DNA from: Chondrosia reniformis
Lineage: Eukaryota; Porifera; Demospongiae; Chondrillida; Chondrillidae
Assembly (NCBI GenBank): GCA_947172415.1
Contig: OX359189.1
Location: 518,501-582,500 of the forward strand
DNA length: 64,000 nt
Direction: 5' to 3'
Shown piece after piece: positions 4,394 to 30,000 of this stretch; within the stretch, counting starts at the first letter, position 1, and each line of letters begins with the position of its first letter. The translations under genes were made by a program, and so were the position numbers. The notes below the pieces were generated by a model that did no database searches, had not been told where the DNA came from, and saw only the letters and a program-made list of their open reading frames with translations.

Positions 4394-6010
4394 TTATTTT
4401 TGAGTGCCAAATGCGGCAAATTTGCTGATGTCCAATTTGCCGGGTTTATTTGTGACTAGACCAGTATCAGATACTGGCTTCAAGTTTGGATCCTGTGATT
4501 TGGGAAGTGCATCTTTATCAAAAGTACTCACATCAACATTGGCCACTATTTTGGGTTTGGAAACAATTGGCTCTTCCTTTTTCTTCAACTTCTCTTCTTT
4601 TGTTTTCTTTAGCTGTTCTAACCATGCAGGCTTTGGTTGATAAGATGTTGTCACCTTAGCAACATCTCTTCTCTTGGAAGGCAATAACGTAGGCAGTACT
4701 GGAGCAATGGGAAGCTTAGCTGCGGAAACTGATGGTGCAGTTGTAGGTGTAGTCATAGGTGTAGTCGATGGTGCAGTTGTGATAGTTGTAGAAGTGTTAG
4801 AGGAAATTGGACTAACTTCTGATGGTTGCACGTTAGAGGGTTCTTTCCTTGAGGCTGACTTGGTTGTTGTAAGAGCTGCTTCCTGTTCAAACAGTTTGAA
4901 TCTTGACAAGCTGAGCTTTCTTGGATTTTTCCTTTTCAATTCAAATGTATCCTCTGGTTCTTCAGGTTGACTCTCCTTTGGCTGTGGAACATCAGGTATT
5001 ATTGGTATAGGAGAGGACGATCTTTGTGGACTCCTAGGTCTCACTTCAGGAGGAGGCGGCTGTTCTTCAAGTATAGGTGGCTGTTCTTCAAGTATAGGTG
5101 GCTGTTCTTCAAGTATAGATGGCTGTTCTTCAAGTATAGATGGCTGTTCTTCAAGTATAGGTGGCTGTTCTTCAGGAGCAGGAGGACCTTTTTCAGTCAA
5201 GGTTTTCTTTGCTTCTAATTTTGGGGATTGCTCTAATGGTTTCTCTTCTTCCTTAGGAACTTGCTTCTTTGAAGCTGATAATGCAGTGACTTTTGGTTCC
5301 TTCTTCTTAGCTTCCTTTGATTTGGGTTTGCTAGCTGCTGATCCACTGAGGTCAAACTTCAGATTAAAGGTTTTGGAACCAGATGTCTTTCTCTTGAATT
5401 GTGGTTCAGGATCTTTTGGTTTAACAATTTTAGGGAAATCTTCATTCTGTGGGAAGTCTAAGGTTTTATCAGCTTCGCTGGGGCTCTCAAGGGTGTCCTC
5501 TGGTGGATAATTCACTTCTAAAATAGTTATTGAGGTTTCCTCTTCTACTGTCTGGCCCTGCTTTATCAATGGTTTCCTATTGGTCTGTTCATCCTCTTTT
5601 TTCTCTTCTGAGAGCTGTTCTAAAGAGACCTTCTTGGTAACTGTAGGAGAGCTATCTGCAGAAGATGACTCCTTTGGTGAAGGAGAGGCCATGCTTGGCT
5701 TGGCAATGCTATCAAAAGAGGATCCAGAAGATATAGAAGCCAAAAGTTTGGCTTTCAAAGGCGTAGACTCATCTAGAGGGGAATCTGTGAAAGCTGGTGG
5801 AGGCGTGGAGTTTGGAGGAAGGGTGTGGCTCTTGGGTGGGTGTGATGGTGGTGGAGGCAACATGTTTTGTAGGTAGAGCCTACGTTGAGTGTTGGGAGTC
5901 AAGGAATCAGAATCTATCGGTGCTGAGAAGGGGCGGACAGTAGTCTTCAAGTGTTTGGGAAGAGCAGATGGTCTTTCCTGCGTTTGCTCCTTGTTAGGAG
6001 GGCCTCCTGC
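4394..6010 (-). other. Disordered cytoplasmic tail with EEQPPIL repeats
   Basis: After the PTP domain the last exon encodes about 540 residues rich in Pro, Ser, Thr, Lys and Glu, without a recognisable fold. Residues encoded at about 5,055-5,180 form six to seven copies of the heptad (S/P)ILEEQP, reflecting a 21-bp DNA repeat. The protein ends KFAAFGTQK. Basic and proline-rich segments could dock SH3 or cytoskeletal partners; that is inference from composition only. Confidence 0.85.
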
Positions 6011-9000
6011 TTCTTGTTTGGGAGAGAGGTAGTCAGCGATAGCTCTGCAGACAAACTGATACTGCTCCTTGTTCTGTACGACCATTCCTCGCTGTCTTCT
6101 CAGGTCATTTAGGATCTCAGATAGGTTTATATTTCCATCTATTTCAAATTTCCTAAGTGCCAGGTGTGTTGCCATGACAATGCCAGTCTTGCCCAATCCA
6201 TTAGAACAGTGTATAAGTATGGGGGACGGTGAATGAGTGGCTGTAGCAGTGTTGAGGTGATGAATGACGTCAACAAGAGAGCTTGTGTCAGATGGTAGAC
6301 TGTGTTCAGGCCACTCAAGGAACTGGAAGTGTTTTATAGTCCTCTTTTCAGGGCTCTGACCATGTCTGACTTCAAATTTACATTCAATAAATCCAGAGTG
6401 TGTCCTAAGTAAAAATAAGAACAGCTATCTAAAACATCAATAAATTGCATTAATCTTGTAGCATTATACTGGCTTATGAAGCTAAAAAGCTATATACTGT
6501 ACATAAGTTAAAATGATGATACCAGAGAGGGATAAATATACTTTATGAATTACAAATGTTCAATAGCTCTTTTGGTAATAAGAAGGACAATTTTAAATAT
6601 TACAATATAATTTGTGTTAACTTATTTCACATACCTTTCTTCTGTACAAGTAATGAATGTCCTCCCATATCGAGCAGACTGTCCTTCTTCAGGCCAATAC
6701 CTGTGACAAGACAGTTGAAGGAAGTTGGCTAACTTGTTAATGATTGCAGTTTGGAAGGATCAACTCACTTCTCAACCGTCTTATTTCCTCCGGGGACCAC
6801 TTTGCTGGCCATCACAATCTCTCTAACGTCTTGCTCCCAAATCATCTGCCAAAATTCTGGTACAGTGTTCCTCATGGGACTCTGTAACCATGGAAACATA
6901 AGCCAATGGTGCTACCGACCTATTCATTAGTATGTAAACTAAAGTGGAGAATTCTGCATAATTTACAACAAATTTGTGGAGTTTAAACATCTTTCATTTC
7001 AAAAAAGATTTAAGAATGTTCCAAATGTAATATTTGAACACTAGAAAACAGTTGTGGTTTATGGTTATCACTAAGTGATGGTGCATATACCTGAGCTGCT
7101 ATGTACTGCCGTGGCATTTCAGGACCATTGATAAAGGTAGCATTGATGTAGTCAGCACCAGCTTTGTCTACCTGAACATCGTGAAGACACACGCGAGTGT
7201 TGTCTGGTGGTAGGGCATTGCGGAAACGATTCTTGGAAAGATTCTCTGGCAACCTGGACACAAAAACATAATGAAAATGACAAGAGGAAGATACTGGTCA
7301 CAACCTTAGACTTACGTTGCAAAAAGAGTATTATAAGATGGAGGATTCATTGAGGCTCTTGCAAACTCCCTGTCAGCTACTCTTGATTCAACTTTATTCC
7401 TTAACTCTACTGCAACATTTTCTTTCTCCATGTCTGTTGGCTTTGTGTTATACTGAGATCTGAGGGTTTCCATTTGTATGCTTTCTCCCAAGTCTTCTTC
7501 CTCTTCTAGAAGTGGTTCTTTATCATTTTGTCTGCCTACCTTTGATCTTCTCTTGAAGAAGCTGCTACTCTTCTTCATCCCTGCTCCTTTACTGCCTATT
7601 TGGTCTTCCTTCCTCTTTGACAAGATGGATCCCTTTCTGCTCTTCCCTTGATCAATCCAAAATTCACTGACGTCTGACTCGGACCCTTCTGAAGGAGGAT
7701 TGTAGTAGAAATTGGTATCTTCAAAGTAGTTACCCTTTTCTATTCCTCCCTCAGTAACTTCCTCATCATCATAGTCGTCTGATTCATAGATAAAGGGAGA
7801 CATTTCCTGTTGATATGAACAATGGAAAAATAAGTAAACAATAATTCCTTGCAACTAAATACTGCCTAGCAACATTACATCATTCACATGGAACCCATTC
7901 CAAATTACATTTAACAACTACATGTACGTATATAGAACATTTAGCTAATTTGTCTACTCACTATTGTTATTTCATCTCTAAGCCAAAATTTATGTGGATC
8001 ACCCATTGCAAATTTGCTCTCAAATTCTTTTTCTCTCTGTAAATTTCTTGGGAGTAAACCAAATGGTCCCTCGTTGATGGACGGCTTCAATTCCTGTATA
8101 ATTCATATATACATACCTGAATATAATAGAGGCTTAGATATATAGTGTGTACACGCATATAGAAGTATATTGTATGTACATGTATGTATAATATAGGCAT
8201 ACAGATATATATTATGTATGTATAATATATTAGGTATATAAATGTATAGAGATTCCAAACTTACTGCTTCTGTGTGTTCTGGTATAAAATCATGTGAAAT
8301 TAAATTAAGCTTGATCCTCTTACGTCTAACTGCAGAATGCCACCTTCTCAAAGTAAACAACAGGAGGAGAATGGCAATTATTCCTAAGACAACTGAGACT
8401 ATTACCATGGCAACCGTTATTTCATTCACCACATATGGTACTACCAAAAGGGGTTCAAAAACCACTCGCTCCGTAGTGCCATTCTGACTTCTAGTGCAGC
8501 CCACAGCTGTACAGGCCACCAGATAGAACCAGTGGCTCTCATAGATGAAGACAGCTGCAGTAGCAGTCCTTCCAGTTCCATTATAAATGAGGCTCCCATC
8601 AAGATAGAGCTGGTAGAGCTCAATGATGCCATTGGGGTACAGAGGAGGTTGCCAAGTGAAATTAACAACACCATTTGTTGACCTGCTGTACTCAGGCAGG
8701 GAGACATTCTCAGGAACTAATAAACAACAACAACAAAACTTGATAAACCAAAAAATATTTAGGTATAAAACAACACAAGAAAAAGTTTAAATGTGTTTAT
8801 ATTTGAAAAGACAATTTTCACATTCAACTAACCATCTTCTGGGGATGTCACCACCAAAAAGTCACTTCCTGAAAGAGGAGTCCTAATTTGAACCTGGTAG
8901 TCATGGAAAGGTCTGGTCTGAAGAAGACTGTGTTGGAGAAAAGCAGCAGATTCATTGCCAGTGGTGCATCCTTGTGGAGTCACTTGTAGGTCCCCTTCTG

Positions 9001-12000
9001 CATCATTAGTCCCAACTGGACATTCTCTGTAATAAATGGTGATGGATTGGGGAGAATGGACATCAGGATTGATGTTTTCAATGACCCAACTGATATTGGC
9101 TAGACGAGAACTGAGAAACTCCAAGCTGATTAATGGGGAGATCACAAAGCTGGTACATTCCTGTGTGGTAAGGGTGTTGCTGGTAACTGTCAAAGGTTGA
9201 TAACCCATCGTTTCTATGACTACCACATTGTCATCTAATGTCAACATCAGAGGTGATGGATATAGAGGATTGGGACTTTCCCTTCCAAATAATTGGGCTA
9301 TTCTTGAAGGAGGGGATTTCCCCTCAGAGTCCCTTGTTAGTACAATAAAAGATACTCCAATGACCCCAGACCCTCGCATGTCAAATGATATTGAATAGGT
9401 TCCACTAGTCCCTTCATTTAATGACAACACGGCACCAAATGGGTTTGTGGTTTTTTCAGCCGCGACTACAATTCCACTTGCATTCAATCCTTGCAACAAA
9501 GCTGCTGCATTTTCCAGGCTAGCTACTCCTATGTCAGCCAACACTACTGCTCCAGTTGCTTGAGCATCAGAAGCTGTCCTGAGATTAATACTGATTCCAA
9601 ATTTACACTGAGAGTTGGGACTTTGAACTGGAAGTATAGACACATCTGATAAAAATGGCAATAATCCCAAACTAACTTTCAGCAGATAAATTACATCATT
9701 CAAGTCTGTCAGGTTGTTTCTATTGACATCTAATAGGGATGATGATGATGTAATCTTATTCAAAATGGCAGCTCCGGTTTCTGTAGAATGGTCTAGCACA
9801 CCCTCTGAGATGTACATCAAAGCACAGGACACATCCAAAAGGTCAAAAGTACAATCACCATTAAAATCCACAGCTGCACAGGCTCCAGTGTCTCTAGTCT
9901 GTCTGGTGGCTGTAGAGTGAACAGACCTTTTAGCTGGACTATTACCATGGAAACGTACTGGAAAAGTTCCTGATATTGAAATTCTTGGTGTTGGTTGGCC
10001 TATTGAGTTGCCATGGATACCAAATTCAGTTATTCTATTGATGGTGACTGTAAAGTTTTCCTCTGAAACACCCTCAGACATCATAGCAGTACCCAAAACC
10101 TCAAAAAGATGAAGTAGAGGACTTGAAACATTAGCTGCAAAAATAATTCCTCCAATACGTATACTTCCTTCTAGATTGTCAATCACTGTGTCATAGACAC
10201 CATTTGTCCAGTCCACTCCAGGAGCTGCATTTGTAACTCTGAAGTTACCTAGGTAACAAACATGAAAGGCATTTAAATATTAGCTACACAAAGAGGTCTC
10301 ACACTACATGGCTTACCAGCTGGGTAATTGATAGTAAGGTCAAGGGTACCAAGGGAAAATCCCTCAGAGTTAGCTCTTATTGCCACAGAGTAATTCTGTC
10401 CATCCTGGAGATTTCGTTCAACTGCTCCATTTAGGATGACATTGACATCTACATCCCCAACACTTGGCAGCAGTTCAACATGATATCTTTCACTGGCCAC
10501 AGTTGATCCATCTGACAGTAAGTGCAATTCTACCTCAATTGGATCCAAAGTGTTTCGCAAAGGAATCAAGCTTCCATTTGATGTGAGGTTGACGAAATGG
10601 TTATTATCATTGGTGACCAGCTCAAAGAGTCCAGGGTACCTGGTCACGCCCACATTGGTATAGAGACCTCCACCTAGAACTGTAAAGTTGATGGTTACCT
10701 GGAAACCATCTTTTTGAGCTATTCCAATAATTGTATTGTCTGGTGGTCTGTTGAGTGCTACATGGCTGAGTGTAGCTGTGTTGGAAAAGGATATGATGGA
10801 CACTTGATTACCAAGAGGCGCTCCTCCATTCACGTCAGAGCACAAACTTGAAAAACTACCAAAACTAGCTGCAATGCCTGTAGTGCTTAATTCTGATGTC
10901 ACAGTTACAATGGCTGGCCCAACTGGTTGCTTGGTAACTGTTAATCTGTTTACACTGCTGTGAATAAATGTTGCATTTTGATGGTTAGAAATGGACACAT
11001 TTCCTGTTGTCATAGCAACACTAAGGTAGAGTGCTGCCTGTTCAAATACAGGTGGCTCCACCGTGAGATAGTCTAGTATAATAGTTTGGCTAAGTGGCAC
11101 ATCAGGGTTGGGAGGGTAAGTCCCTGCAATTAGATTCAAACACATAACTCTAGTCACCATAAGCTGTAGAGTGCTATTTAAACCATATGCCATCACAACT
11201 ACTTCTCCCATGCCTTCACTCATAGCTTTCACTCGGTTGGCATTCAACAAAAGATTTGTGTCTGCTTGAAATTGGGCTAAAGAAGTAATATCAACTGTGT
11301 CGCCATTTTCAAATTGAGCAATGACTTGAATTTCTATTGATGTGGGTATGTCTAGGAGAGCAGCTGGGTCACCTTCTATGGTCATCTCCAAGGCAACCAA
11401 AGATGGCGGGATGGTATAGATATGTATTGGCTGTCTTAGCATGACTGAAATATCAACCTCTTGTACTAGTGTTCTCCTGCAGCCAGCCCCTCCAGGAGAC
11501 CATGTGACCTCTAGGAGACGACCAGAACCATCTGACTTTGGAGTAATAGTGTTGTTTTGATTAATTGAGATTATGGAATTGTTCAAACTCTTTAGAGAGA
11601 TTTCATTTGCCGGTAAAAGCTGAATGTTGCCATCACTCATTTGGGCCACTACTACTACTGATGCAGGTTTCTGTTCTGACATCAAAACTGATGAAATTAA
11701 AACCAAAGCTTGCTCTTCAATCTGGATAAGATAGATATCAGATGCTACTATGCCAATATCAGCAACCACAAGTGTTTCCAAACTTATGACCTCCACTGAT
11801 ACATTAGTGACAATAAAATTTAATGGTTCAAGACTTCCTGTGACAAGCAAAAAATGAGGTTGGTCTATATTACCCTGATCTAGTACTTCCAACGTGCCAT
11901 TAACTGCAATTGCATCTGAGGCTAAAACATTCACCATTACATAATCGGTTATATCAACATTATCAACTCTTAAACTTCCTGATATGAATGTTGTACTTAT

Positions 12001-15000
12001 TGTGTACTTGCTCTTTTGGTAACCTAGGCTACAGTTTCCAAGGGTAACCATGGATAGCACATTATCAGCAAGATGTAACTGTGTTGCTGTTGTCATTGGA
12101 TCCCACACTCTAATGTTTATTGAAGCATGGATATTACCAGCTAAGGTAAGATCTACTTGAACTGTTCCATCTCCGCCTAGCAGTCCTCCAGTAAGGTCCA
12201 ATCTGGTGCAGTTGACATTGACAGCTGGAGACAGGCTATCACAAAATAGAGTGCTTGCTAGAGATGGCTCAATTGCTATGGGGGAAACCCTGCCTGATGA
12301 GAAAGCTACCTGTGTATGAATATCTGTCCCCACCTCTTGCTGGTTGTTTATAGCAACTGTGTTAACTAACTGAGGCACATCAACCCAAGCAAACAAGCCA
12401 ACGGGTGTTTCTGTAATTATGTCAACAAATCCGGCTCCTTCATCAAACCTCTCGGTTGGTTTGAAGAACCTGGCACTTCCTGAAATGTCTTCTTCGTGAC
12501 TCAAGACTACCCTTCCTTCTACAACATTACTGAGTGAGTTAACTTGACATCTAACAGAAGCTGACCCCTGTGAAGCGTTTGCATCCACAATTATGGTTGC
12601 CCGTAGCAACTCATATGAGTAAGGAGTGCTCTCTATTCTTATAGCATTGATGGCCATTAACTGGTTGGTTGCCTTGGTAACAGAAGCCGCCCACTGTGGG
12701 TGAACTAGGAGGTCACTGATGGTTAAATCAGTTGATGACACATTTAAAGTGACACTAAATGAGGAAATATCAAATGTTGAGTTGCCTAGGAGATTGATAT
12801 GAAAGCTCTCCCCAGGATAGAATGCACGAGTTGGCAGCTGTACCAATACCTGGTTCATGAAGGATGGTGTTTCATGAAAGGGTCTGAGAAGAATTCTGTC
12901 TGGAAGCAATGGCTGAGGAGAGTTCTGAATGAACATGAAAGTGACTTGAGCGCTCTGTACTGACTCTCCAAACCAATTAAGTGGTATTGCCAGCTCTCCT
13001 GTGCACATTCCAATGTCATTGGTTGTGCAAGATACCACCTCAATCATGTTGTCAAGGGATACTGAGATATTAACCAATGTAGTCTGTACACTGACACTGC
13101 CATCTTCATCTCTCAACTGAATGGCAAACCTGATTAAATTGGCATCAACTGTAAACTCTGGACTAACTGGACCAACTTCATTTAACATGTGTCCAACACC
13201 AGTAGCAGCCATTTTTCTTTGTACATTAAAATTTTCCTCCACATAAACATCACCAAGCCGAGCCACCACTGTGTTGCTAAGTGTAACTGGCAGTCCAAAG
13301 GTCCTCCGTAGCTCAAGGGAATTGTTAGATGCCACATCTCCTACAAAGAATGCTCCTCGAATGCTTATTTCAGGTTGTATGGGTGGAAATTCAATAACTG
13401 GGGGAGGACTAGGACTAGGACTAGGACTAGGGCTGGCTGATGCAGCGGATGTGGAATTGACCAGGATGGAAGTGGGCATGATTCTCACTGGTGTGGGTGT
13501 GGTCATCACTGCTGTGGGTGTGGTCATCACTGCTGTGGGTGTGGTCATCACTGCTGTGGGTGTGTCTGACTGTAATAGAGGCATGCTACTTGACATTGAG
13601 GGAGAAGCCACAGATGGAGACTGGGGTATAGCACTTTGGTTGCTACTGAGAATATCTCTAGATGTTGGCATAGCAACAAAGGTTTGAATATCACTTGAAG
13701 TTTCAATACCACTGGTCTGAATACCACTGGAGGTCTGAGTAACATTGGATGTTTGAATATCACTGGAGGTCTGAATATCACTGGTCTGAATAACATTGGA
13801 GGTCTGAATATCACTGGTCTGAATACCACTGGATGTCTGAATAACATTGGATGTCTGAATAACATTGGATGTCTGAATAACATTGGATGTCTGAATATCA
13901 CTGGAGGTCTGAATATCACTGGAGGTCTGATTATCACTGGAGGTTTCAGTGGTGGCAAACATTACATCTGACACATTTGGTGATAATAAAGTATCTGATG
14001 AGGTACTGATAATGGAGTCTGATGAAAGCAAAACTGGCGAAGACATGGTAACGGATGATGACGGTTGACTGACAGATGAAGCACTTGGCAAAGAAGTGGC
14101 AAGAAGAGATGAACTATTTAGTAGTACTGATAAAGATTGGACAGTACTTGAAGAGAGTTGCATAACAATGGTAGATGATTGCACAATTAAAGTTGTTTCT
14201 GTAATATCAAAAGATGACAAGTCAGAAGTTGCAACTAGTGATGGTATGCTGTCTGATGCTGATTGCACAATGGTTGATGATGGTTGCATAATAATTGATG
14301 AGGGTTGCACACTTAGACATGAGCCATGTGTTAAATTATTGCTGAAGAAAATGAAAGGGTTATACCCCCTGCTAGCTTGTAGTTCTACTTCTGATCCGTT
14401 CACAGAAAGTTCAGCAAAGAGCGACTGTGGTATGAAGTAAGGAGGGTCTGGCTGCCCAAACATGGCCTGACCATAGGTGGGTGGGAGAGCACCTGGCACT
14501 ACTTGAGGTACAACCTGAATGACAGTCAGACCAATGTCAGTATTAGTCAAATTGGTTGCCATAGTGACCCGAAACCTTCCATTACCAATGTCAACAGCTT
14601 CAATTATTCCTCCAAGTAGAGATCTTCCTTTAGCATTTGGCACCAGCTGACCCTCAGTGATGGAGCTGGACTGAAACAGCTGCTCTGCCTCCGAGCTCTC
14701 TCCAGTTGCTATGGAAACATCAAAGTATAGAAAAATGTCATTGGCTGAGGGTCCATTTCTGTTACTACTCTGTAAATCAGCTGTAAACTGAGTCAAACAG
14801 CTGCTGGCTGGTGATGTGGTCTCCACGGTGACTGTGGTTACAAAATAGGCAAATCCTAGGCTAGCTCTTAGCAGAAAAAATGCATCATTGACATCCAGGA
14901 CACCATTGCTATCAACATCATAACTCCCTAAAGTGACATTACCAGGCAAAGGAGAATCAATGTATACACTATCGAGGAGAATGGCCAATAGTGCAGACGA

Positions 15001-18000
15001 GTCTTCATTTGTTAACACACAGTCACCATCAACATCTCCCAGTTCACAGGCAGTCTGTCTCCTGCTCCTAGTCACATGACTATCATGTGATTGTGAATAT
15101 ACTTGGCGTCTCTTACGAGAAGACATGATATCAACTTGAACATTTCCAGCAACAAAATCATAGGGAGGAGTTGCCTTGATTAGATTTCCATTTTGAGATC
15201 TCAGACTCAAAACTCTGCCATTAATGAATGCAAGTCCTTCAGAAAGAGTCCTGAACTGAAGAGTTGCCACGGCAACTATGCCGGGCACATTAGAGTTGAC
15301 ACTGCTTGACTCAATGATAATTCTGCCATCACTAACTATTGAACTAAACACAATGTTGTTAAGTCCAACTGAGTCATCTAGACTTTCAAACTGCAACTTA
15401 TTGTTATCATAAAACACTTCAAATTCAAATGAACCAATCATATCACTTCCTGTGTTAACACGGATTGGGACTGCAACACTGTTACCAATGCTGATAGGAG
15501 GCAAGGGTATTCCCCTCTCCTGTCCCAGATCCACATCTCCGATATCTGGTTGGAGATTGGCTGCAAACAAGAGATCATATTGTGCACTTGAAAGGGCTGA
15601 TCTAGTTGTTATGGTAACCAAATCAAAGAAATTATCTCTCAGCAATATTGAACCAGCTGATCCATCCACTAGAACTCTGTCTTCCTGGGAGGAAGTAAAG
15701 GTGAATAACCCACCATAGAAAGAAGGGTTTTCATTTGTGAACTTGCTGCCGTCATTAAATTCCACAGACACCAAAAGTTGTCCTGTCCCATCATCCCTAA
15801 CACCAAGAAGAGTGTCACTGCCAAATGTCACATTGTCAATACGCTCTACAGTTACAATGTCACTGGTGACCTCAAGCATTACCTCTGTGGAACGTAGTCC
15901 AAAGCTTCCTTGTATGGTGACATTACCAGCTAGGATGGGTGTGATAACAGAGCCTAGAAGAGACACAGTGCCAGCTCCACCAATCTTCCTTATACTAGTA
16001 AAGTCATTCTCTGTGACATCAACTTGTACACTATCTGACAGGACAACAACCAGTCCTAACACTCCACTCTGGAACACGTTCGTCCCTCCTATTTTGTGAA
16101 GGGTCTGAACGGCCACATCCATAGAGCCTGGATACTGAGGATAGGGGTGAACCTCCAGCCTTAAGGATTCAAATATCACTATGGAAACATTGAACCTTGT
16201 AACTAATGGTGAATCACCGTAAGTGAATATAACTTGTGATGGACCAGGACGGGACAGGGAGGTTGTCTGTAAAAGTAAACCATTATCTACTATTTCAATC
16301 ACTAGGTCAGTTGTAAGGTCAAAGTTCAGCTCGGGGTCAAAGGTCACATCTCTAGCGTGGCCATCGGGAAAGAATAAATCAACTGTAATGACAACAGAAT
16401 CCTCCAAACCAGCAAACACAGAGTCATCTCCCTCAACTGCCAGCTGCAATGGAGCTCCATTCACAACCAGTGAAACTGGTAGTGGAAGTGTGCTAGTGAC
16501 AGAGGACACCATGCTGGCAACCAATGCACAACCATTCATCCAATCAACCTGGACCAAAGACCTTCCTGTTCCCTTGACAAACAGTTCATTTCCTTCTCCC
16601 ATTAACAGAACAGTCTGGTCGAGGGAGGTGACATTGAGCCCTAATTCATCAGTCACGAGCAACCTAGTTCCATCACTGAAAAGAGCAGTAGCAATCACAT
16701 GACCAACTTCGAAATCATCATCCAATATCATATCCAAAAGTGCATCAGCTCTTGGGCTGCTTAGTAATGGGGTGGCTTCAGAGGGTGTAATAATGCTTAA
16801 ACTGGTTGCTATGGTTACATTGAAACTGACCACAGACACATATGAAGGCGATACTTTAACAGTTAAAGGAGAGATGGCATTTCCAGCTGTTACTTGTGCT
16901 GTCCCAGGAGATAAACCAATTAATGTGTCTCCCTCTAGTTCTACTACTGACTGATTGGAAAGTGAAATGAGATCCCTAATGAGATGCAAAATGGAAGCCT
17001 GAAAGACTGGTGAGGTTGGAGAACCATCAGTGAAGTTGGCAAAACTGTACAGTTTAGTTCTTTGGTACTGCTGTGTGCATCTGCCATCCTTCATAGCATA
17101 CCATCCCTCTACAGCAGAAAGGGGAGGGGCTGAGGAGGCCACACCCAACTGGGCCGACATAGGGAACCAGACTCTGAAGGAGATGGTCTCTTCAAATTCA
17201 CCAAACTGAACTGTTACTGTCACTGATGGTGACCCTTCTGGTTCATCACCAGAAAGGTACACCGCAGTGCAAGTGTCGTCAAGTTTGAGTGCTGATGAAG
17301 ATGCTTGACAGGTAAGGTTTGATCTGATCAGTGATACTACACCAGAGGAATACACTGCGTATGTCATCAGTGGAATGGTGACAGTGTCACCAGTGAACAC
17401 TGCTGTGTTGACAAGGTGTGACTGGATGGATGACAATTGTATGCCAACCAGGACTGGATGTCCTATCTCCACAAAGCCGACTTGAGATAATGGAGAATAT
17501 ACATTCCCATCAATACTTGCAGCTGCTGGGGTATTCAAGCTTCTGACAGTCAATTTCTCATGGAAAACATTACTTATATAAAATACTGTGCAACTGATGT
17601 TGCCATAGAAACCATCTGGGGCTGATGCAGATACATGAACTAGGAAGCTAAAGAGCTCTTCTCCTGCTTTGTTTGGTAGTGAAGTTGCCGAGGATGGATT
17701 TCTGAGAATGGCTGCAATTCTAAAAGAATTATCTTCATCTTGTCTCATTTGGTGAAGCCACTTTGAGTCATCAACGAGCAGTTGTGAAGTGCTGAGAGTA
17801 AGAAATGCACCAACAGAACATCCAATGCTAAAGGTAGCCATTTCTTGATTGTAATAGGCTGACAATGATACTGGAAAACTGTTGCCTGGTAACAGTATGT
17901 GGGTGGGTAGAGATACCACCACATCATCAGTATAGTCTTCTTCAAGATGGTGAACAAGAGTGGTTGAACCAAAATTAGGAGACACTATAAAGTGGCCGAC

Positions 18001-21000
18001 AACTGTTGCACTAAATGTGACCCTTTCATCTTGTGTCAGTAGAGAAGATACAAACCACTCGATTGGAAGTGAAAATGTTGCTTCACATTGCCCAGTCTCC
18101 TCGCCAGCTGGGATGGTACATACTACTGCATTATCCACTATGGACTGGGTTGGTATTCTAGTCAGGGCTGCACTGGGTGCCATGGTAACCTCAACAGTGA
18201 CATTATCTGTGTCTGTACCCCCATCCACATCAACAACTTTGATAAGAACTCTCACTTCTGGTCTACTTCGATGAACCTCTGAATCTATCACAATGCCACG
18301 TACTTCCCCAGGAGATACAAAACTTGACTGAACTGCCATGCTGGAGTTGAGTGGACCCAGTCTTGCACTTAGTGTTGCCATGGTTACAGGGGGTTGATCA
18401 GCAAAGAAGCCATATCTCTGCTGCAGTCCTAAGGAAGAACCCAAAAGATATCCACTACCAGATATCTCAAAATCAACATTAGCAATACGAGATACTGCTA
18501 TGATAACAGTTGTCATGGTAACCATAGCAGGTTGTCCTTGGTCAGAAGCTAGTACAGTAAGTGTTATGGCTGTCAAACTATTAACACTTGCTGTTGTAGT
18601 AAGGACACCAGTGGAAGAAGAAATGGTAAAGAAGTCACTTGTTTGAGACAGGGAGTAAGTTATAACTGCATTTGATCCAAAATCTATATCACTAGCCTTC
18701 ACCTGAATGACTGAATATCCGACTAGCACTGTATCAGATATTGTCTCCAAGTAGCCATCTTGTTCAAAGATAGGTGCATTGTCGTTGATATCTGTAACTG
18801 TAACATTCAGTGCAGCTGTAGTGCTCATTGGAATAGAGGTAAAGGGATTTGTTGCTTCAACTTGTATCTCATGAGAGGTTTCTGTCTCTCTGTCCAGTCC
18901 TCCTGACAGGAACAGCTCACCAGTGGCCAAGCTGATAGTGAAGAGCTCACTGTTACCGGACACAATCTGGTACTGCACAACACCAGCTGTTCCAGCATCT
19001 CCATCTTCAGCTGTGAACTGATAAAATGGAACAGAGAGGTCAACAGGCTGATCCTCAGGGAGCTCTATTGCTGTAATCTGATTGGTGAACATTGGTTCAA
19101 ATTCGTTAATGTCTGTTACCATGACAACCACTTCCAGGGGCTGAGATGTGAGAGGAGGAGTGCCAAGGTCTCTAGCAAAGACATAGAAAGACATGGTATC
19201 GTTATCCACTTCAAAATCAAATACTCTAGCTGTTGTCAATGTGCCATTTATTTCATCAATTGCAAAATTGCTACTCTCAATTGTGAATCTAATTTCAGCA
19301 TTAAGACCAGCATCTTCATCAGTTGCAAATAGTCTAGTTAACTCATATCCAGTGGGTGTGTTCTCATTAAGAGACAGATTGACACGCCCACCAGGTGATA
19401 CACCCACAAACATTGGGGCGTGGTTATTAATGTCAGCAACGTTCAACCTCACATTGACTGAGTTGGTCATGGGAGGAGTTCCCATATCAGTTACCATGAC
19501 AACAAACTCATAAGTATGTCTTCTGGAATATTCCAAAGTGTTGACAATCATAATACTGCCGTCAGTGAGAACCTCAAAATCAGGTCCTGCATTAGAAGAG
19601 GAGTACACCAAATCACCATTTGGTCCAATATCTTCATCTGTGGCTGTAACAGCTGCTACTATACTACCCACTGTGGCGCTCTCTGAAACATTAAAGTGAT
19701 AGAGAAAGAAAGGAAACAACGGTCGGTTGTCATTGACATCTTCTACTGTGATGTTTACCACAGCACGGGCTAGGGTGATGTTCAATAGAGCCGATGGGTT
19801 GTAAACACCAATAAACAGCTGATAGCTATCAGTAATTTCCCGATCAAGTGATGAAACGAGTATGACGCTAGCACTGTTTTCTGATGTTTCAACAGTAAAA
19901 GGAACATTCTCATTTTCAATTCTAAATGCAACAGCAGCATTGGAACCGGAATCATCATCAAAGGCTTGCAAGATGGCCACTTCAGTCCCAATTGTGGCAT
20001 TCTCTATCACGGTTTCATTTAATTGGTCTTCTATAAAGTAAGGCAGATTATCATCAATATCAATGATGGAAACTGTCAGTATCAAAGTAGCATTGAAGGA
20101 TGGTATTCCGTCGTCTGCTACTAACATTTCCAAACTGTATTCATTCGGTTGTACCTCGTAATCAAACAATGATATTGTGAATACTCTGCCATTTGTGCTG
20201 TTGACAGTAAACAAGCCTGTATCACTGATTAGTGTAAACATTAGAGTATTATTGTCACCATCTGTAGCTGTAGGCGTGTAGATATTGGAATTAATGGGTG
20301 TGTCTTCAGGAATGGATATCTGTATTACCTCAGAGGGTAGGAACTGAGGGGCGTGGTCATTTCCATCAAGAACATACACCTCAACATAAGCAGTACCTGT
20401 TCTTCTGACTGACACACCACCATCCCTGGCTATTATTGTGAGATTATAAAATGGTGTTGTTTCATAGTCCAGTGAGGCCACTGTTGCTAGGTTACCATTC
20501 AGTGACATCACAAAATCCCCATCCTCATTTCCAGACTGAATTTCATATGTAACAAAGGCGTTAGCAGCTTCATCTACATCGTTAGCTGACACAGTTAAGA
20601 GATACTCATTTGGCATTCCATTTTCAAAGAGTTCAGTTCGATAGACATCTTCCTCAAACACTGGTGTATTGTCATTGACATCTTCAACAGAAATTGTCAA
20701 GGATAAAGAATCTGTAAAACTTCCATCACTCACCAGAAATGTGCATACATGGGAGTCTGATGTTTCCCGATCAAGCTGGTTGCCAAGGGTAACCACACCT
20801 GATGAGGAATTGATGGACAGTATTCCAAGTGGATCATTTGTGCAAGCTGATACTGAGTACATCAGAACTGAGTCCACATCTTCATCCGTGGCAGAAATGG
20901 TTATTATTTCAAAGCCAAGCGGGAGATCTTCCGACAGATCCATCCTAGTGTCAGCAGTCCTAATGAACGTGGGCGGGTTATCATTCACTAAAGAAATTTC

Positions 21001-24000
21001 TATACTAATCTCGTAGCTCGAGCTATCCTGACCATCAGATGAGACTAAAGTCACAGTTCGTTGTTGGGCAGCATCTGGTTCATCTGCTGAGTTGCTGTAG
21101 GAGATATTCAAGAGAATGGCTTTAAAAGCTTCTTCATTTCCCAGGCTGACGGGCTGGAATGAAAACTGGATAATCTGTTGATTTGGTGTAACCACGGCTA
21201 CCAAGCCTGGCAATTCTCCACTAAAGTGCAACTGTTCACTAGTGCTGTCCAGGACTCCTCCCAGAATAACAGATAAAGAAGTAATTGTGGAGTTTTCTGG
21301 ATCAAAAATCCTAACTGCCTCATTGAAGAGCTTAATAGGGGCACTGCCTTCTTCATAATACACAGTTTCTGGTAGCCCCTCAATAACAGGGGCATCGTTC
21401 TGCAGCTGGAAAGTGATGTACACATTAACTGTTTCACTGGAGCTTATTCCATCACTCACAAATACTGTTACCCTTCTCTCCAAAACCTCAGGTTCAACTA
21501 CCATATTAAGGTACACAACACTGCGAAGTAGCCCTACATATTCACTAATCAAAGCTGCTCCTCTAATTAGCAGGGACCCACTCATTGATTCTACAGTTAA
21601 ACTTGTCTCTGTTCCACTTGATAGCTCCAGTATTTCTTGTTCAAAATCATAGACTGTTGCTATGGTAACATTTGCTAGGGTTAGCATAGCTGAATCTACA
21701 TCAGTGATGGTTACCATGGAAAGAATGTTAACTCCATTGCTATTCTCCTCGTAAGTTGTGTTGTAATCAAATCCCTGTTGAATACCATTGGCATCCAAAA
21801 TTGGAGCATTATTAACACCTTGAAATGTTACATAAGAAGTAGCCTCTGTTGCATCACCCTCTGCATCAGTAACAAGAAATTCAACACGTCTTGTTGTACC
21901 AGCTGCTTCTAGTTCCTCAAAACGACCTTCTTCAGCTAGAATATTAGTGTAGGTTACCATGGTAATGACACTGGTGTATTCCTGTACTGTTGCCATACCA
22001 GATAGTTGGATTGAACCAGACTGTTGAAAGATGGAGACAGAGCTGTTTGATGGAGATGATGAAACATTAAGATATTCAATTCCACTTTGAAAATTTACAA
22101 TGGAAATGACAGCAGCCACTAAGAAGTCACTGTCCATATCATTCAACACAAATCCATCGGTTGTCAAGGCAACAGATGGGGCCGATTCAACGTATAAGAC
22201 AGTAATGTCAACAGAATTGTTGCCAAGTAACAGAATAGGAGGATCATTAACAGAAACTAATGAAATAACAGCTCTGGCAGGTTGACTGACCATCACTCCA
22301 TCGGAGACCAGCAATGACACTTCTCTTGTGAGAAGTGATGGTTCGTCTGCCAGGTTGATGTAAGTGAGTGATTGTAGTACTGTTAAAAATGATTGGTGAC
22401 TCGCTGGTCCTGCTAGCATGAGGTTGTGGCTTGTTGACAAGGAGGAGAGAATAATCTCCATGGTAACAGAGAGGGAGATATTCAATTGCTCCAGTTCTCC
22501 ATCCACTGGGTTGTGCAGTGTGATATTTATATGGTCCACTTCTGATTCCAAATCTAAATCTCTCAGAATGGGATCTGATCCGACCAGCTGTACAGCTTCT
22601 CCTTCTTCTGTGAATGAAGTAAAGAAGTCTAGTCCTACACTAGAAGCACTGAGGTCAAGCTCGGGAGGATTATCATTCACCAATTCTACAAAAATATTGA
22701 TGTATATGACCTCACTAGTGTGGTTGCCGTCGGAAACAGATACTTCAACTATTCTGAGTCCCCTGGTTGGTTCATTTTGTGAGTTATCAAAAGCAAGGTT
22801 TCCTAATATGGTCGTATATTGTGAGGGTGTAGCTGACCCAGTGAGTTCTATTACTTGATTGGCATTCTGCACAACTGTTAGACCTGATACTGCCTGATTG
22901 AAAGTGAGGCGGTCCCCTTCATTAGGCTGGGAGGTGGAGTCAAGGTAAATTCTTACAAGAGCAGACATAATTGGGAAAGTATCTTCATCAGTAACAGTGA
23001 GCCCAGGACCAATATTAATAGGGTTTTCCCCTTCAAAATAGGTATAGTTCTCACCTGTGTGAGTTAGTATTGGAAAGTTATCATTTAGGTCTATGATGTC
23101 AACGGTGACTGTGACATTAGATGACAGTTGTGGTACACCTCTGTCACTAGCAGTAATGACAAAAACATACACATTTGTCATCTCTCTGTCAACAGGTTCA
23201 GTGAGTTGGATGACACCATCGATTGGGTTGATTTCAAAGGGCAGCTCTGTGTCATTCTCAATGGCATATCTTACAGCACCATTCAGTTCAATGTCGTCAT
23301 CCAAAGCTGTCACCTCGCCCACAGCCACGCCCAAGGCTGAATTCTCATTAATCATAAAAAGGTAAGACTCTTCTTCAAACACTGGAGTTTCATCATTTAC
23401 ATCACTCACTCTAAGAATGATGGTTGCCATGGCAAAGAAGTTGGCAGAGTGGGGATTGTAAGCTTGCACTGTCCCAATGTGGAGATCCAGTTCTTCTCTA
23501 TCCAAAGCAGTTAGTGTAGTCACATGACCAGATGTCGCATCTACTGAGAACACTTGCGAACTGTTGGCTGACAAACTATAACGCACTACTGCATTATTAC
23601 CAAAGTCACCATCTGTAGCCATCACCATGGTAACCAATGACCCTGGTTCAGAATCTTCAGGCAGTTCGGCAGTGTATTCATCTTGTGTGAACTCAGGACC
23701 CAAGTCATCAGCATCATTGATGATGATTGTGACAGTGGTGGTATCAAACATGGTGGGAGTGCCGCCATCTTGGGCTCTCACAGTGAGAGAAAAGAGAACA
23801 TCTCCTGCATCAAAGTCAAGACTCCTGTCCACAAAGATGTCACCTGTTGATACATTGACAGCAATCTTCCCTCCACTGGTGTCTCTTAGAGTCTGAAAGG
23901 AAACCATTCCATTGTTACCAATATCTCTGTCTTCTGCCTCCAAGGGAAGGATGACACTTCCTGGAGCAGTATCTTCAGGTATGGCGACAGTATCAGTACT

Positions 24001-27000
24001 TCCTGTGAAAATGGGCGGGTTGTCGTTAATGTCCAGTAGCTGAATTGTCAAGGCGACTGAAGCTGACAAGGGCGGACTTCCACTATCAGTTGCCCTGACA
24101 ACGAGATCATACACTTCCACAGTTTCCCTATCCAACACACCAACTACTCTCACAACACCCGTAGATGAGTCGATGGCAAAGGGAGAACCGAAAGGTCTCA
24201 GTGTATATGTTATCAGGCGTCCTTCTCCAGTGTCAGGATCCACTGCTTGTACCTGTGTCACCTGTGTGCCGAATGAGGCAGCTTCAGAGATTGTGTCAAA
24301 ATAGAATTCCTGAAGGAATACGGGAGGCTCGTTAGCGTCCGATACAGAGACCATCACTAAAGCTGTTGCAGAAAGAGGCGGAACTCCGCTATCTTGTGCC
24401 ACCACTTCAAACATGTAGCGCATTGAACCAGTGGCATTTAGCTCTTCAGTATTTCTTAAAATTCCACTTAATTCATCAACTTCAAAAGGAACTGCATCTG
24501 CTGCCACTAGAGTGTATCTAATGTCACTGTTGGATCCAACATCTCTGTCTGTTGCTGTAAGAGATGCCACCAACGTTCCCACTGGATCTGTGTCTGTTAC
24601 TATGGCAACCACATTGCTATCTACAAAAGCAGGTGCGTTATCATTTTCATCAAGCACAGTGATTATCAGCTGAGCTATACCAGTGTTTGGTGGAGAAGCA
24701 CTGTCTGCTGCTAAAAGAGTGAAGGAGTAATCAGGTACCACTTCACGATCCAATTCTCCAACTAAAGTCAGGCTTCCAGTTAGGAAATTTAGTCTCAGAA
24801 TGGAGCCAGATGGTTGCAGTGTGTATCCTAATATAAAGTCACTTAGATCTGGATCAGTGGCAGTCACAGTTCCCAGAAGAGTGTTAACTGGAGTGAATTC
24901 TGAAATATTGAACACATAGCTGTCATTACTAAACACTGGTGCTTCATCATTGACATCCAACACTTGTACTGTCACAGTAGCAGTGGCCATGTGGAATGGA
25001 CTGTTGCTAGCGGTTACCATAAAAGTGTATGAATCCTGAGTTTCTCTGTCCAATGGTCTGATGGTATACACATCCCCACTTTGACTTTCAATGTAAAATG
25101 GGATTGGGTTTGAGGATGGAACGAGGGTGTAGGTTATTAAAGCTGACTGAAATTCATCTTGGTCTGTTGCGATCACCGTGGTAACAAGGAAATTGGAATT
25201 TACATTTTCATACACGTTGGCAGAGAACATAGTTGGAACAAAGACTACATCAAAGTCATCAACATCACTAACATTTACCTCTAGCATTGCTGAAGTTGAC
25301 AAAGATTGATTCCCTAAATCTGAAGCTATAACTGTTGCTATGATAACATTGACACTTTCAAAGTCTAGAGATCTTATTAGAGTAATTTCTCCAGTTGAGC
25401 TGTTTATATTAAAATAGTCTCCAGTAGTGTTGATGGAATATGTTACCATTCCATTCTCACCACTATCTCTGTCTGTTGCAGTTACTATGGTAACCAAGCC
25501 TCCAATGGTAGTATTCTCTGGCAGAGATGCAGAATAGAAGGCTTGTGTGAACATTGGAGTGTTATCATTGACATCTGATACAAACACTTCCACTGTAGCT
25601 AGGCCTAAAAGGGGAGGGACCCCTAGGTCAGACACACCCACTGTAAAGTTATAATATTGTATAGCTTCATAATCCAGACTTCCATTTAATATAAATGTTC
25701 CACTAAATGGTGTCACTGTGAAAGGCTCAGATCCACCAGCAAGGAAATACTCCCCCAGGGTAGAGGAGGGGGGCTGGTCAGCATCAGACACTGTAAAGAC
25801 AGCTACTTCAGTCCCTCTCTGTGCATCCTCGGAGAGGAAGAAGAATAGAGGCTGGTTGAGGAAGAAGGGAGTGTTATCGTTCACATCAAGCACATGCACT
25901 GTCACCACAGCCGTGCCACTTAGCACTGCTCCATCATCTCCCACATTGGAGGCTACTACAGTAAACTCAAACAGAATGTTCATCTCAAAATCTATCACTC
26001 CTCTTGTAGAGATGGTACCATCAAGCTCATCTATAGTGAAGGGGACTACACCACTTCTGATGGAATACTCTATAATATTGCTACTGTTGCTGTCAGGATC
26101 GGTTGCCTGGACAACAAGGATTGCAGTACCATTGGTCGTGTTCTCAAATATGGACGTCTCATATGATGGCTGACCAAATGTAGGAGGCTCATCATCTATG
26201 TCTGTTACCATGACAACCAGTCTAGCTGTGGAGGATAATTGTGGGCTGCCTTGGTCTTCTACAATGACAGAGAGGTTGTGAAAGTCTGAAGTTTCAAAAT
26301 CAAGAGCTGTTGCCGTGGTGATTAGACCAGAGATGGGGTCAATGTTAAAGAGGGATGTCCCTTCAATTTTAAAGGAAATGTCTGCATTAGTACCTTGATC
26401 AACATCCTCTGCTACTAACACAACAACTTCTATACCAGAGATCTGATTTTCTCTGATCATGCCCACAAACTCCCTCTCTATGAACACGGGGTGATTATCA
26501 TTAATATCCCTTAAGGTAATATTGACAGTAGTTGTTGCCATCATTGGTGTTGATCCTCCGTCTGTTGCTGCCACATTAAAGGTATACTCTTCTATCATCT
26601 CTCTATCAAGACGATCTGACACTGTGATGGTTCCATCACTGCTGATGGAAAATGGGACAGGGTCATTGATGGTGTATGACTGTATGATAGCATTTTGCAT
26701 AATGTCTGTCTGGTCTGATGCAATCACCTGGCCAACTGGTGTTCCAGTGGCCACTTCTTCATCAACAGTGAAATGATAGTTCTCTGATGGAAACATCGGA
26801 GGGTGGTCATTGAAGTCAGCAATTGAAATCACTATCTGTGCAGTGCTCTGTAAGATCACACTTGTAGTATTGGTTGCCAGGACAACAAATTCATACAAAT
26901 CCTGTTCTTCCCTATCAAAGATGACTACAGCCCTAATGCGGCCATCTTGTGGGCCAATGATAAAAAGGGTTGAATTGGGTCCCCTTAGGTCAAAGGTGAT

Positions 27001-30000
27001 GCCCTCTGTCCCTCCGGTTGTGGGGTTGGCGGCTGATACTTGTACAATCACATCGCCTGGGGGCTGTTCCTCCAGAATGGTCCTCCGATACACAGCCTCG
27101 CTGAAGAGAGGGGAGGTATCCGTTATGGAGATGACGTCTACCTCCACAAAGGTGGTGCCAGTGAGGGGTGGGGCACCACCATCCACAGCTATCACTGTTA
27201 GGTTATAGAGTGACACAACTGAATGGTTTAACATGGCCGACAGCGTGATTAATCCATCTTGAGAATTAATTGCAAACACATTATCAATATTACCTTCACT
27301 AATCGAGTACTGTATTTCAGCGCTGCTTCCTTCATCACTGTCAGAGGCAGATACTTGAATCACAGACGAGCCGGTGTTGCTAGTCTCATGAATTCTAGCA
27401 AAGTACATGTCAAATTCAAACTGAGGAGTGACATCATTTATATCAGAAATAGTAACCATGACAACAGCAGTGGTTGCTAGGGAAGGCATTCCACCATCGG
27501 TTGCCACCACAACAAACTGGTAGGAGGTCCTTTCTTCACGATTGAAGACGACAGCTGGAGCTACTCTAATGTTTCCATTGGCATCAACAGTAAACAGTTC
27601 GTTGAGGCTTGTCAGAGTATACACCAAGTCACCATTTGGGGGACCATCAGGATCTGTTGCTGGAGTCTGGCCAACAGAAGAACCTGGATCAGCATCCTCT
27701 GAAATTGTGAATGAATACATTTGCATTGAAAAGGTTGGAGAATTATCATTCACATCCTCAACCAATATTACTATGGTAACCCTATCTGGGAAAATGGTTT
27801 GAGGGACTGTCTGACGAGCCAGACCTCCCTGAAGCTCATAGCTATTGTTAGCTTCAAAGTCCAGACTGGTTTCCAGTCTCAAATCGCCATTTGAACTCAA
27901 TCTGAAAACAGAGGTTTCTGTTAGGAGTATGTAATCAAATGGGTCTCCATCAATATCCGTGGCGTTCAATGTCAACAAGGTTGATCCAACTGAAGTGTTC
28001 TCTGACACATTTACCATTACTAGAGACGTAAGAAATGTCGGTGGGTTGTCATCCACCAGCTGAATTGACACTGTAGTGATGGCCAGGTCACTTGTCAACT
28101 CACTGTCATTAACCACTAATCTTACCTGTCTCCGTGGCAACCCAGCTGGCTCACTAGCATTGTTAAAATAGGCCAAGCTTCTTAGAAGTGATGTGTACAA
28201 GGTAGGTGTTCCCAAGGTGGAGGGGGTGGGGATGAAGCGGTATACTAGCTCTGTCATTTCCATGACAACAACATCAAAGGGAAGTGAGGAGTCATACAAG
28301 ATACTCTCCAAACCAACATCTTGAATGTAGAGCAGTGTCACTTCCATGTACACTAGAGTGTCGCTGTCCACATCAGTGACAGATGATGACAGAGTGTTGA
28401 CAATAGATGCTGGGCTCCCTTCTTCAGTAAAAGTGACAGAAATGTTTCTTCTTTGATTGGAGTCGAGGTAGATGAGTGGTGGATCATTAACGAGTTGAAT
28501 TGTCACACTCACCTCCACTGGAGAACTCTCTGTCACATTGTCACTCACTACCAATCTAATGACTCTATTAGCTGGGTCTGGTTCATCAGCTGAGTTCCTG
28601 TAATGTATCCCTTGCAAATAACTAGTATACTCACCTGGAGTACCTAATCCGCTGATTGTGATGGTACTAGTAAATGAGTCGTATGAACCTAGTAGTACAG
28701 TTTCTGCAATGTTAGTAGTCAAAATCCTTTCCATGCTACCATCAGGTCTGGTAACCAGGGTGATGGTTGCCATGGTGATATATTCTGAGTCAGAATCTGT
28801 AATTGTTATGTCTGAAGTGAAAACTGGGACATTCAGACCCTCTTCAACAAAGACGATGGAATGTGAGTTGCCGGGTTCAGCTCCATTAATGTCAACCAGT
28901 GGGGGATCGTTCTGAGGGACCACTTGTACCAAAGTAAAGGCTTCTGAGGTGAGACCTGCATCATCAGATACTAAAAATCTGATTGGACGTTCACCTAAGG
29001 TGGGCTCTGTGGCATTATTGGTGTATAATATATCACGTAGCACAGAAGTGTAAGCTATGGGGGATCCTGACCCAGTAACAACTAGCTGACCATTAGAAGG
29101 CTGAGTCAAAGAAATCCCACTTGGTAAGCTCGACTGTGGTAGAACAAGATACTCGTAATTGACATCTTGGATGTTCATTAAAGAGGCTGTAAGTGATGTT
29201 AGGGTCAGTGAATCAGGGTCCGATATCACACCAGAGGCTGCTGACACCATTATAGGTTGGTCTCCTTCAAAAAAGCTGGTGGAATGGTTTCCCAAGGAAG
29301 AGGTTGCTACAGTAGGAGGGTCATTGATGGAAGAGAGACTGATAATACTATAAACTGGTACACTTGACAATTGGCCATCAAATGCTACCACTTCTATCAG
29401 TCTCTGAAGAGGTTCACTAAAATTATCAGCGTCGTTGCTATAGGTAACACTGTTCAAAATCCCCTCAAAGTCTGTAAAACCACTTGGTCCATTCAAGTTC
29501 AATTCTGTGCCTCCTTGGAGGGTTATAACCTGGATTGATGAGTTGGAGGAGAAGGCAGTGAGTCTTTCAAAGGCCCCATCTTCTGGCTCAACTATCCTCA
29601 CACTGACATGGTCTAGTGTCATTGACGCAAAATCATTGTCTATTACCCTCACCCCGTTTGGGTCGGCTATCAAAACTGGCAGTCCATCTTCAACAAACAT
29701 TGCCGAATAGTTTAGATTGGTTGTGCCGTCTGTGATGGAAAGATCAACCAGAGGAACTTGATCATTGATGGGAGTAATGTTGATGGTGAAGGTGATACTT
29801 GCATTACTGTTACCATCAGATACGGTTATGTCAATATTTCTAGCAAAGGTCAAAGGTTCATCAAGAGAGTTTACATATTCAAGGTTTCTTAGAGCATTGG
29901 TTGCCGATGGCAATGAAAAGGGGCCAATCAAATTGATTACTGTGCCTCCTCTGACACTTTCAACTGTTTCACCAAAAGTTAAAGTTTGTGCTGGAAAATC

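Follow-up and report, generated by a model that had tools for sequence, protein, structure and literature searches.

The window analysed here, a stretch of 64,000 nucleotides of the sponge Chondrosia reniformis (assembly GCA_947172415.1, contig OX359189.1, positions 518,501 to 582,500), carries on its minus strand a gene for a giant receptor in which laminin-type domains, a cadherin array and two TMEM132-like modules precede a membrane span and a cytoplasmic protein tyrosine phosphatase (PTP) domain. Both modules end with a cohesin-like domain, a linker and a dockerin-like domain. The main new result is a conserved candidate cut between cohesin and dockerin: the linker of module 1 holds two predicted sites of the proprotein convertase type, with counterparts at the same place in two paralogous proteins. 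Nucleotide positions are those of the window, and residues are numbered along the modelled protein.

The receptor gene and its domains

Read from 39993 to 4394, all GT-AG joins of the gene model are in frame and leave a single frame (Table 1). Exon 5 (37167-10317) is one coding exon of 26,851 bases, or 8,950 amino acids (aa), though the gene otherwise contains introns. The Pfam cadherin model is matched in three consecutive pieces, with 15, 22 and 2 stretches, a laminin-G-like part is matched under the cut-off, and a Cys-rich region corresponds to growth factor receptor domain IV (GF_recep_IV, PF14843; 30.5 bits against a cut-off of 29.5). In module 1 the fourth and fifth TMEM132 domains are found, PF16070 (E 2.6e-20, at 17424-17161) and PF23486 (28.5 bits, cut-off 28, at 17091-16870), together with a match to PF23481 that stays under the cut-off (E 0.013). 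Module 2 gave no Pfam match at E 1 upstream of its cohesin-dockerin end; BLASTP aligns it with module 1 over 1,099 columns at 23% identity (E 1e-27). Ahead of the membrane the sequence looks FN3-like by eye, and the Pfam FN3 model was without a match there at E 1. The modelled ectodomain comprises 10,243 aa.

Active PTP domains are characterized by a C-X5-R loop and a WPD loop. The PTP domain of the window gene has C-X5-K, with Lys in place of the catalytic-loop Arg, and WPE in place of WPD; its best matches among solved structures are PTPRS and LAR, the best-scoring stretch lying in the second PTP domain of PTPRS. Because of this Lys, the WPE and the match to the second domain of PTPRS, it is probably a pseudophosphatase, with little or no catalysis predicted.

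Lefftyrins, as Nichols and colleagues are said to have defined them in 2012, combine laminin-N, EGF, Cys-rich, cadherin and FN3 domains with a membrane span and a PTP domain. The window gene contains a laminin-N domain with laminin EGF repeats, a Cys-rich region, a cadherin array, and a membrane span with a cytoplasmic PTP domain, and from this domain make-up we take it to be a lefftyrin.

Table 1. Features of the window gene in protein order, followed by its two paralogues
Feature	Position	Strand	Basis or content
Whole gene model	4394..39993	(-)	13 exons, 11,288 aa, signal-peptide-like start to stop; one open frame, GT-AG joins by eye and by script
Exon 4, with laminin-N and laminin EGF repeats	37346..38751	(-)	Pfam PF00055 E 1.7e-29, PF00053 E 1.5e-23
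Cadherin repeat array (approximate limits)	18490..37050	(-)	Pfam PF00028
Ig/BIG part of TMEM132-like module 1 (limits approximate)	15580..18490	(-)	Pfam and alignment with module 2
Cohesin-like domain 1, aa 7929-8072	15124..15555	(-)	Six-module profile against PDB; fold match of AlphaFold2 model 2
Linker 1, aa 8073-8100	15040..15123	(-)	Start of the most basic 28-aa window in the ectodomain
Site A (predicted convertase target RKRR; cleavage after aa 8078)	15106..15117	(-)	Sequence; SRKRRQ in C14, SRKKRE in C1c
Site B (predicted convertase target RSRR; cleavage after aa 8094)	15058..15069	(-)	Sequence; RHRRQ in C14
Dockerin-like domain 1 with calcium loops DVDGDCVLTNED and DVDSNGVLDVND	14845..15039	(-)	Six-module profile against PDB
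Ser/Thr-rich repetitive stalk, module 1 to module 2 (approximate limits)	13407..14325	(-)	Translation
TMEM132-like module 2, Ig/BIG part	10486..13400	(-)	BLASTP against module 1
Cohesin-like domain 2, split by intron 10249-10316	9950..10485	(-)	Alignment A1; row in the six-module profile
Linker 2, PAKR and RQTR, no RX[KR]R	9872..9949	(-)	Sequence
Dockerin-like domain 2, loops DFNGDCTFDLLD and DVNRNNLTDLND	9662..9871	(-)	Alignment A1
Membrane span, from aa 10244	8350..8426	(-)	Translation, by inspection
Single PTP domain over four exons, HCSNGLGKTG and WPE	6008..7253	(-)	Pfam PF00102 E 4.8e-70
Contig 1 paralogue	L016, L017, L018 (C1:1049947-1074894)		Cadherins and three TMEM132-cohesin-dockerin modules
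C14 paralogue	L020:5882-10000 and L021:1-5184		Long Ser/Thr-rich repeats; one TMEM132 module; cohesin and dockerin with a double basic site between them; a second Ser-rich stalk; span

Cohesin-like and dockerin-like domains

Searching the genome with module 1 found, besides module 2, four related modules in two other open reading frames (ORFs): a frame of 8,316 aa on contig 1 with three modules (C1a, C1b and C1c) and a frame of 3,101 aa on contig 14 with one (C14), all four being 20-26% identical to module 1. Cohesin and dockerin are adjacent in all six modules and five loop Asp columns are invariant in their alignment, while the calcium loops of both window dockerins look canonical by eye.

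Taken singly, the window sequences reached neither the Pfam cohesin (PF00963) nor the Pfam dockerin (PF00404) model, and a phmmer search of PDB with module 1 alone found no cohesin; the matches of module 1 to exosome RRP4 in the PDB search were discarded as chance. In the genome search PF00963 passed the cut-off in two of the six modules, both paralogous (C1b and C14), and in a protein scan with the same model C1b passed again and C14 was unlisted at E 0.1. A profile of the six sponge modules, with no bacterial sequence in it, was then run against PDB: 27 of the 29 distinct sequences at E < 0.01 are cohesins, dockerins or dockerin-bearing enzymes, as classed by the depositors' names and the matched stretch (5nrk_A and 5nrm_A by entry title), and the remaining two, named serine protease, are matched in their dockerin stretch. 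Cohesins fall within profile positions 15-137, dockerins within 168-252 and the basic linker between the two; 4u3s_B spans 82-243. The best PDB dockerin has E 1.7e-5, and the first plainly unrelated protein appears at E 0.012.

The better of two AlphaFold2 models of module 1 (model 2, from the 6 rows of alignment A8), with a mean predicted local distance difference test (pLDDT) of 62.5 and a predicted template modelling score (pTM) of 0.53, is usable for the cohesin part only, its ten-residue blocks having pLDDT 58-86 in the cohesin and 30-61 in the dockerin. With this model Foldseek returned cohesin entries, by title, at all of ranks 1 to 30 in PDB, one of them non-cellulosomal and archaeal, with E from 5.6e-9 and template modelling scores by target of up to 0.79, in a setting which favours a cohesin fold match, as the alignment behind the model included bacterial cohesin rows. 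An earlier model (model 1, alignment A4, 3 rows; mean pLDDT 38.6, pTM 0.27) was set aside, and alignments A2, A3 and A6 went unused, the last two, richer in bacterial rows, being clearly misaligned. A cohesin-like domain followed by a dockerin-like pair of calcium loops had been proposed in an earlier, sequence-only reading of this DNA; the profile search and the fold match of cohesin 1 bear this out, and together they support the view that the window domains are genuine relatives of cohesins and dockerins.

In both window dockerins (9662-9871 and 14845-15039) a C-x8-C cysteine pair flanks the start of the first calcium loop, with similar pairs in the dockerins of C14 and C1a; such a pair would perhaps form a disulphide just after the cut. 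Dockerins are recognized through residues at loop positions 10 and 11. In the present modules the residues at these positions vary (14878-15039), which would allow different dockerin specificities.

Basic sites between cohesin and dockerin

The sequences SSRKRRQ and RSRRQ lie at 15123-15055, between cohesin 1 and dockerin 1, and sites A and B within them are the only RX[KR]R motifs of the ectodomain, a third (aa 10277) being found just inside the membrane span. Cutting at both sites would release 16 aa. In model 2, residues 145-171 (aa 8075-8101), which coincide with the linker and follow ordered strands, have pLDDT < 50. In linker 2, RQTR fits the minimal RXXR only, a pattern that occurs 12 times in the ectodomain. 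The sequence-only reading had seen basic sites after the cohesin in both modules, with possible cutting by furin-type proteases at each: this holds for module 1, with its two RX[KR]R motifs and the canonical sites kept in paralogues, and is too strong for module 2, because neither PAKR nor RQTR is RX[KR]R.

Ahead of its dockerin C14 has ASRKRRQMNLLGERISFGEGTRHRRQDMC, in the two-site layout of the window gene (SSRKRRQVYSQSHDSHVTRSRRQTAC): ASRKRRQ...RHRRQ and SSRKRRQ...RSRRQ show the same arrangement in stretches that are 23% identical as a whole. The third module of the contig 1 paralogue, C1c, has SRKKRE and then a weaker second site, KQRR. Among the modules found, exactly one per protein carries a canonical site in all three proteins, and in the window gene it is module 1.

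The three ectodomain sequences amount to 21,570 aa, the paralogues being represented by their two long open frames only, with other exons left out. They contain six RX[KR]R sites, five of which fall in the six cohesin-dockerin linkers (176 aa in all), where 0.05 would be expected; the sixth lies among the cadherins of the contig 1 frame. Three of the six linkers hold a site, a number that six windows placed at random reached in none of 200,000 trials. Linker limits were drawn by hand, and three linkers start at or just before the basic motif; when widened by 15 aa on both sides the linkers hold 5 sites with 0.10 expected, and when widened by 30 aa (536 aa) again 5, with 0.15 expected. Shuffling the linkers with their composition kept gave 5 sites in 1 of 20,000 trials and three linkers with a site in 104 of 20,000, with a mean of 0.55 sites against the 5 observed, so that the signal owes part to the basic composition itself. 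The most basic 28-aa window lies in a linker in both the window ectodomain and C14, and a linker is joint most basic in C1. Minus-strand ORFs of at least 60 aa on either side of the contig 1 frame held no further RX[KR]R within the stretches scanned. Together, these comparisons support conservation of the basic sites well beyond the rest of the sequence, and cleavage in module 1 is a well supported prediction.

A possible source of the protease is found on contig 4, where a P-domain match of 71.5 bits has subtilase (S8) pieces within 2 kb, as for a split gene; other P-domain matches lie on contigs 9 and 11. These matches support the contig 4 locus as a convertase-type gene, its activity being predicted.

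As to the paralogues themselves, the C14 ORF gave no Pfam cadherin match, and this protein may be the sponge TMEM132. The contig 1 paralogue, a coherin-like candidate, lies about 0.5 Mb from the window gene, and a 573-aa ORF beside it (L019:4841-6562, minus strand) looks glycoside hydrolase-like by eye, from a sequence motif.

Cleavage, clasp and other readings

Given the observed domains and sites, and the conservation of the sites in two paralogues, we infer a receptor that is cleaved and retained through calcium-dependent pairing. Giant cadherin and receptor phosphatase would be made as one chain, and a proprotein convertase would cut linker 1 in the secretory pathway at RKRR, at RSRR or at both. 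The outer chain would end at residue 8078 or 8094 and comprise laminin-N, EGF, cadherins, TMEM132-like module 1 and cohesin 1, and the membrane chain, of about 3,200 aa, would start at or just before dockerin 1 and carry module 2 and the PTP domain. The most likely clasp between the two would be the calcium-dependent pair of cohesin 1 and dockerin 1, acting in cis; efficient cutting of module 2, closer to the membrane, would not be expected. All readings with a cut in module 1 together hold about four-fifths of the probability and, given cleavage, the chance that cohesin 1 and dockerin 1 clasp in cis is put at a little under one half; therefore a lefftyrin-type receptor cut in module 1, with its chains clasped by this pair in cis, is given a probability of about 0.38.

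Several observations weigh against this proposal. The canonical site is missing from C1a, C1b and window module 2, that is from three of the six modules, and the domain pair therefore does not itself need a cut; the second calcium loop of C1b looks degenerate. No interface information came from the two AlphaFold2 models, in which pTM was 0.27 and 0.53 and the linker and dockerin were modelled with low confidence. Up to residue 8094 the outer chain has an odd total of 65 cysteines, which leaves one unpaired at some point and, by count, makes a disulphide bond with the membrane chain possible. Of the 8 cysteines in module 1 the last is at 7604, none falling in the 490 aa ahead of the second cut, and there are 22 from the second cut to the membrane, 4 of them before residue 8400; the idea that even counts point to a non-covalent joint was dropped, as module 1 and the part from cut to membrane are even and the whole outer chain is odd. 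Bacterial chains tell in the same direction. A bacterial dockerin DNA pattern gave at least 119 stretches, of which 80 were scanned first (1,353 ORFs) and then 119 (2,043 ORFs), and ORFs matching both the cohesin and the dockerin profile numbered four among the 80 stretches, at E 10, and five among the 119; none of the five contains RX[KR]R, although cohesin and dockerin would share one chain. For L064 and L078 the Pfam cohesin model confirms frames that equal theirs in length, L057 and L148 are weaker evidence, and PF00963 was matched in 8 of 14 bacterial genomes chosen from the first 80 stretches; L093 (scores of about 1 bit) and L127 (low scores, reversed order) were dropped as two-domain chains. 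Scaffoldins with both domains are known, and the cohesins of an Acetivibrio scaffoldin bind dockerins of other chains (PMC3413522).

As in Acetivibrio, where the partner is another chain, the two freed domains could act in trans after the cut, binding neighbouring receptors, the other module or paralogues, and the outer chain may then be shed. Six cohesin-dockerin modules in three genes would provide many partners, the dockerin loops that vary between modules would suit different specificities, and each module may contain a further cohesin-like domain of the TMEM132 type, to which PF23039 (under the cut-off in one paralogous module) and a profile comparison with the pre-dockerin cohesin (hhalign probability 41%, weak by itself) both point. 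A neighbour tethered within about 28 aa would, however, have a large concentration advantage, and a weak search of the genome found no stand-alone dockerin protein: five of the six weak PF00404 matches (L003, L004, L006, L007 and L008) resemble ordinary EF-hand proteins on inspection, and PF00404 also misses the six module dockerins. Such use in trans is considered unlikely. Likewise unlikely is a receptor that is cut and whose chains are joined by other contacts, such as Ig/BIG domains, strand exchange or a disulphide, with cohesin and dockerin left as structural remnants. Other furin-processed receptors do hold together through other domains (PMC8711739), and both the far divergence of the six pairs and the odd cysteine total of the outer chain would agree with this, but not the placing of canonical sites between cohesin and dockerin in all three proteins, nor the invariance of the five calcium-loop Asp columns.

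Two further readings concern the linkers alone. The chain could stay uncut if the basic linkers were sites for glycosaminoglycans or other acidic ligands, or were incidental, and their rank as most basic window in two of the three sequences, and joint most basic in the third, would be explained in this way; the ordering of residues into RX[KR]R beyond what linker composition yields, and the return of the SRKRRQ ... RXRRQ layout in a distant paralogue, make this quite improbable. It is also conceivable that paired sites serve to excise a short peptide as the product, in the manner of a prohormone, since a short segment separates two sites in the window gene and in C14 (19 aa) and, if the weaker KQRR is used, in C1c (13 aa). 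A conserved peptide messenger would not be expected to vary in length and sequence as these segments do, and doubled sites can serve just to secure cleavage, so that this reading is very improbable.

A cut-and-clasped receptor would share features with several known systems. With cellulosomal and non-cellulosomal pairs it shares the cohesin fold, the dockerin calcium loops and the presence of both domains on one chain (as in L064 and L078), whereas the cellulosomal pair assembles different chains and the five bacterial ORFs matching both profiles are without RX[KR]R. Notch, after its S1 cleavage by furin, is a calcium-dependent non-covalent heterodimer. The logic would be the same here; the domains of Notch are unrelated to those of the window receptor, which gives no sign of later cuts. 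The LAR-type receptor phosphatases are furin-processed and their chains stay non-covalently joined (PMC8711739), so that receptor PTP, furin site and two chains, demonstrated for LAR, would find their counterparts in the window receptor. LAR-type receptors differ in their two PTP domains and in having the furin site where the ectodomain ends C-terminally (same source); the window receptor has a single PTP domain, its site lies about 2,150 aa ahead of the span, and it is not of the LAR type.

Lefftyrins, coherins and hedglings are cadherin families common to choanoflagellates and sponges (Nichols et al. 2012, cited in PMC6030884), and TMEM132 domains occur in them in the same order (PMC6030884). 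The window gene is like them in combining a cadherin array with TMEM132-type domains and differs in its conserved candidate convertase site between cohesin and dockerin, of which no description was found, for these families or otherwise, in searches of openly licensed papers. In TMEM132 the cohesin is described as preceding the Ig domains, vertebrates are reported to be without a detectable dockerin, and a strong interaction by the TMEM132 cohesin is called unclear, partly for want of that dockerin (PMC6030884). Shedding of vertebrate TMEM132 is conceivable, as two paper titles on ADAM10 and BACE1 substrates leave room for it. The window receptor shares the TMEM132 Ig domains, and C14 is a single-module, membrane-anchored, Ser/Thr-rich relative (PF16070, PF23486, PF23039); by contrast, cohesin and dockerin come after the Ig domains in the window gene. 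The sequence-only reading knew of no such arrangement in an animal protein. Cohesins in sponge and choanoflagellate cadherins (coherins) are in fact published already (PMC6030884), and what stands of that claim is the cut: the families are known, and the conserved candidate cut between cohesin and dockerin is the new part.

The role of cohesin domains in the surface proteins of animals and choanoflagellates is the question addressed here, and a dockerin standing beside the cohesin across a conserved candidate cut offers a direct and cheap test of it. In a wider and unlikely reading, the cohesin-dockerin pair would be a cut-and-clasped, calcium-dependent and force-sensitive joint in an ancient class of animal adhesion receptors, in which strong pulling would detach the cadherin arm and expose the phosphatase-like membrane chain. 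On this reading one module per receptor would be opened by a convertase, and the single-module TMEM132-like paralogue with its identical two-site layout would place the joint in the TMEM132 module as such, before it was fused to cadherins. If the clasp were real, a pair of the bacterial scaffold type would have been turned, about when animals arose, into a joint linking two receptor chains.

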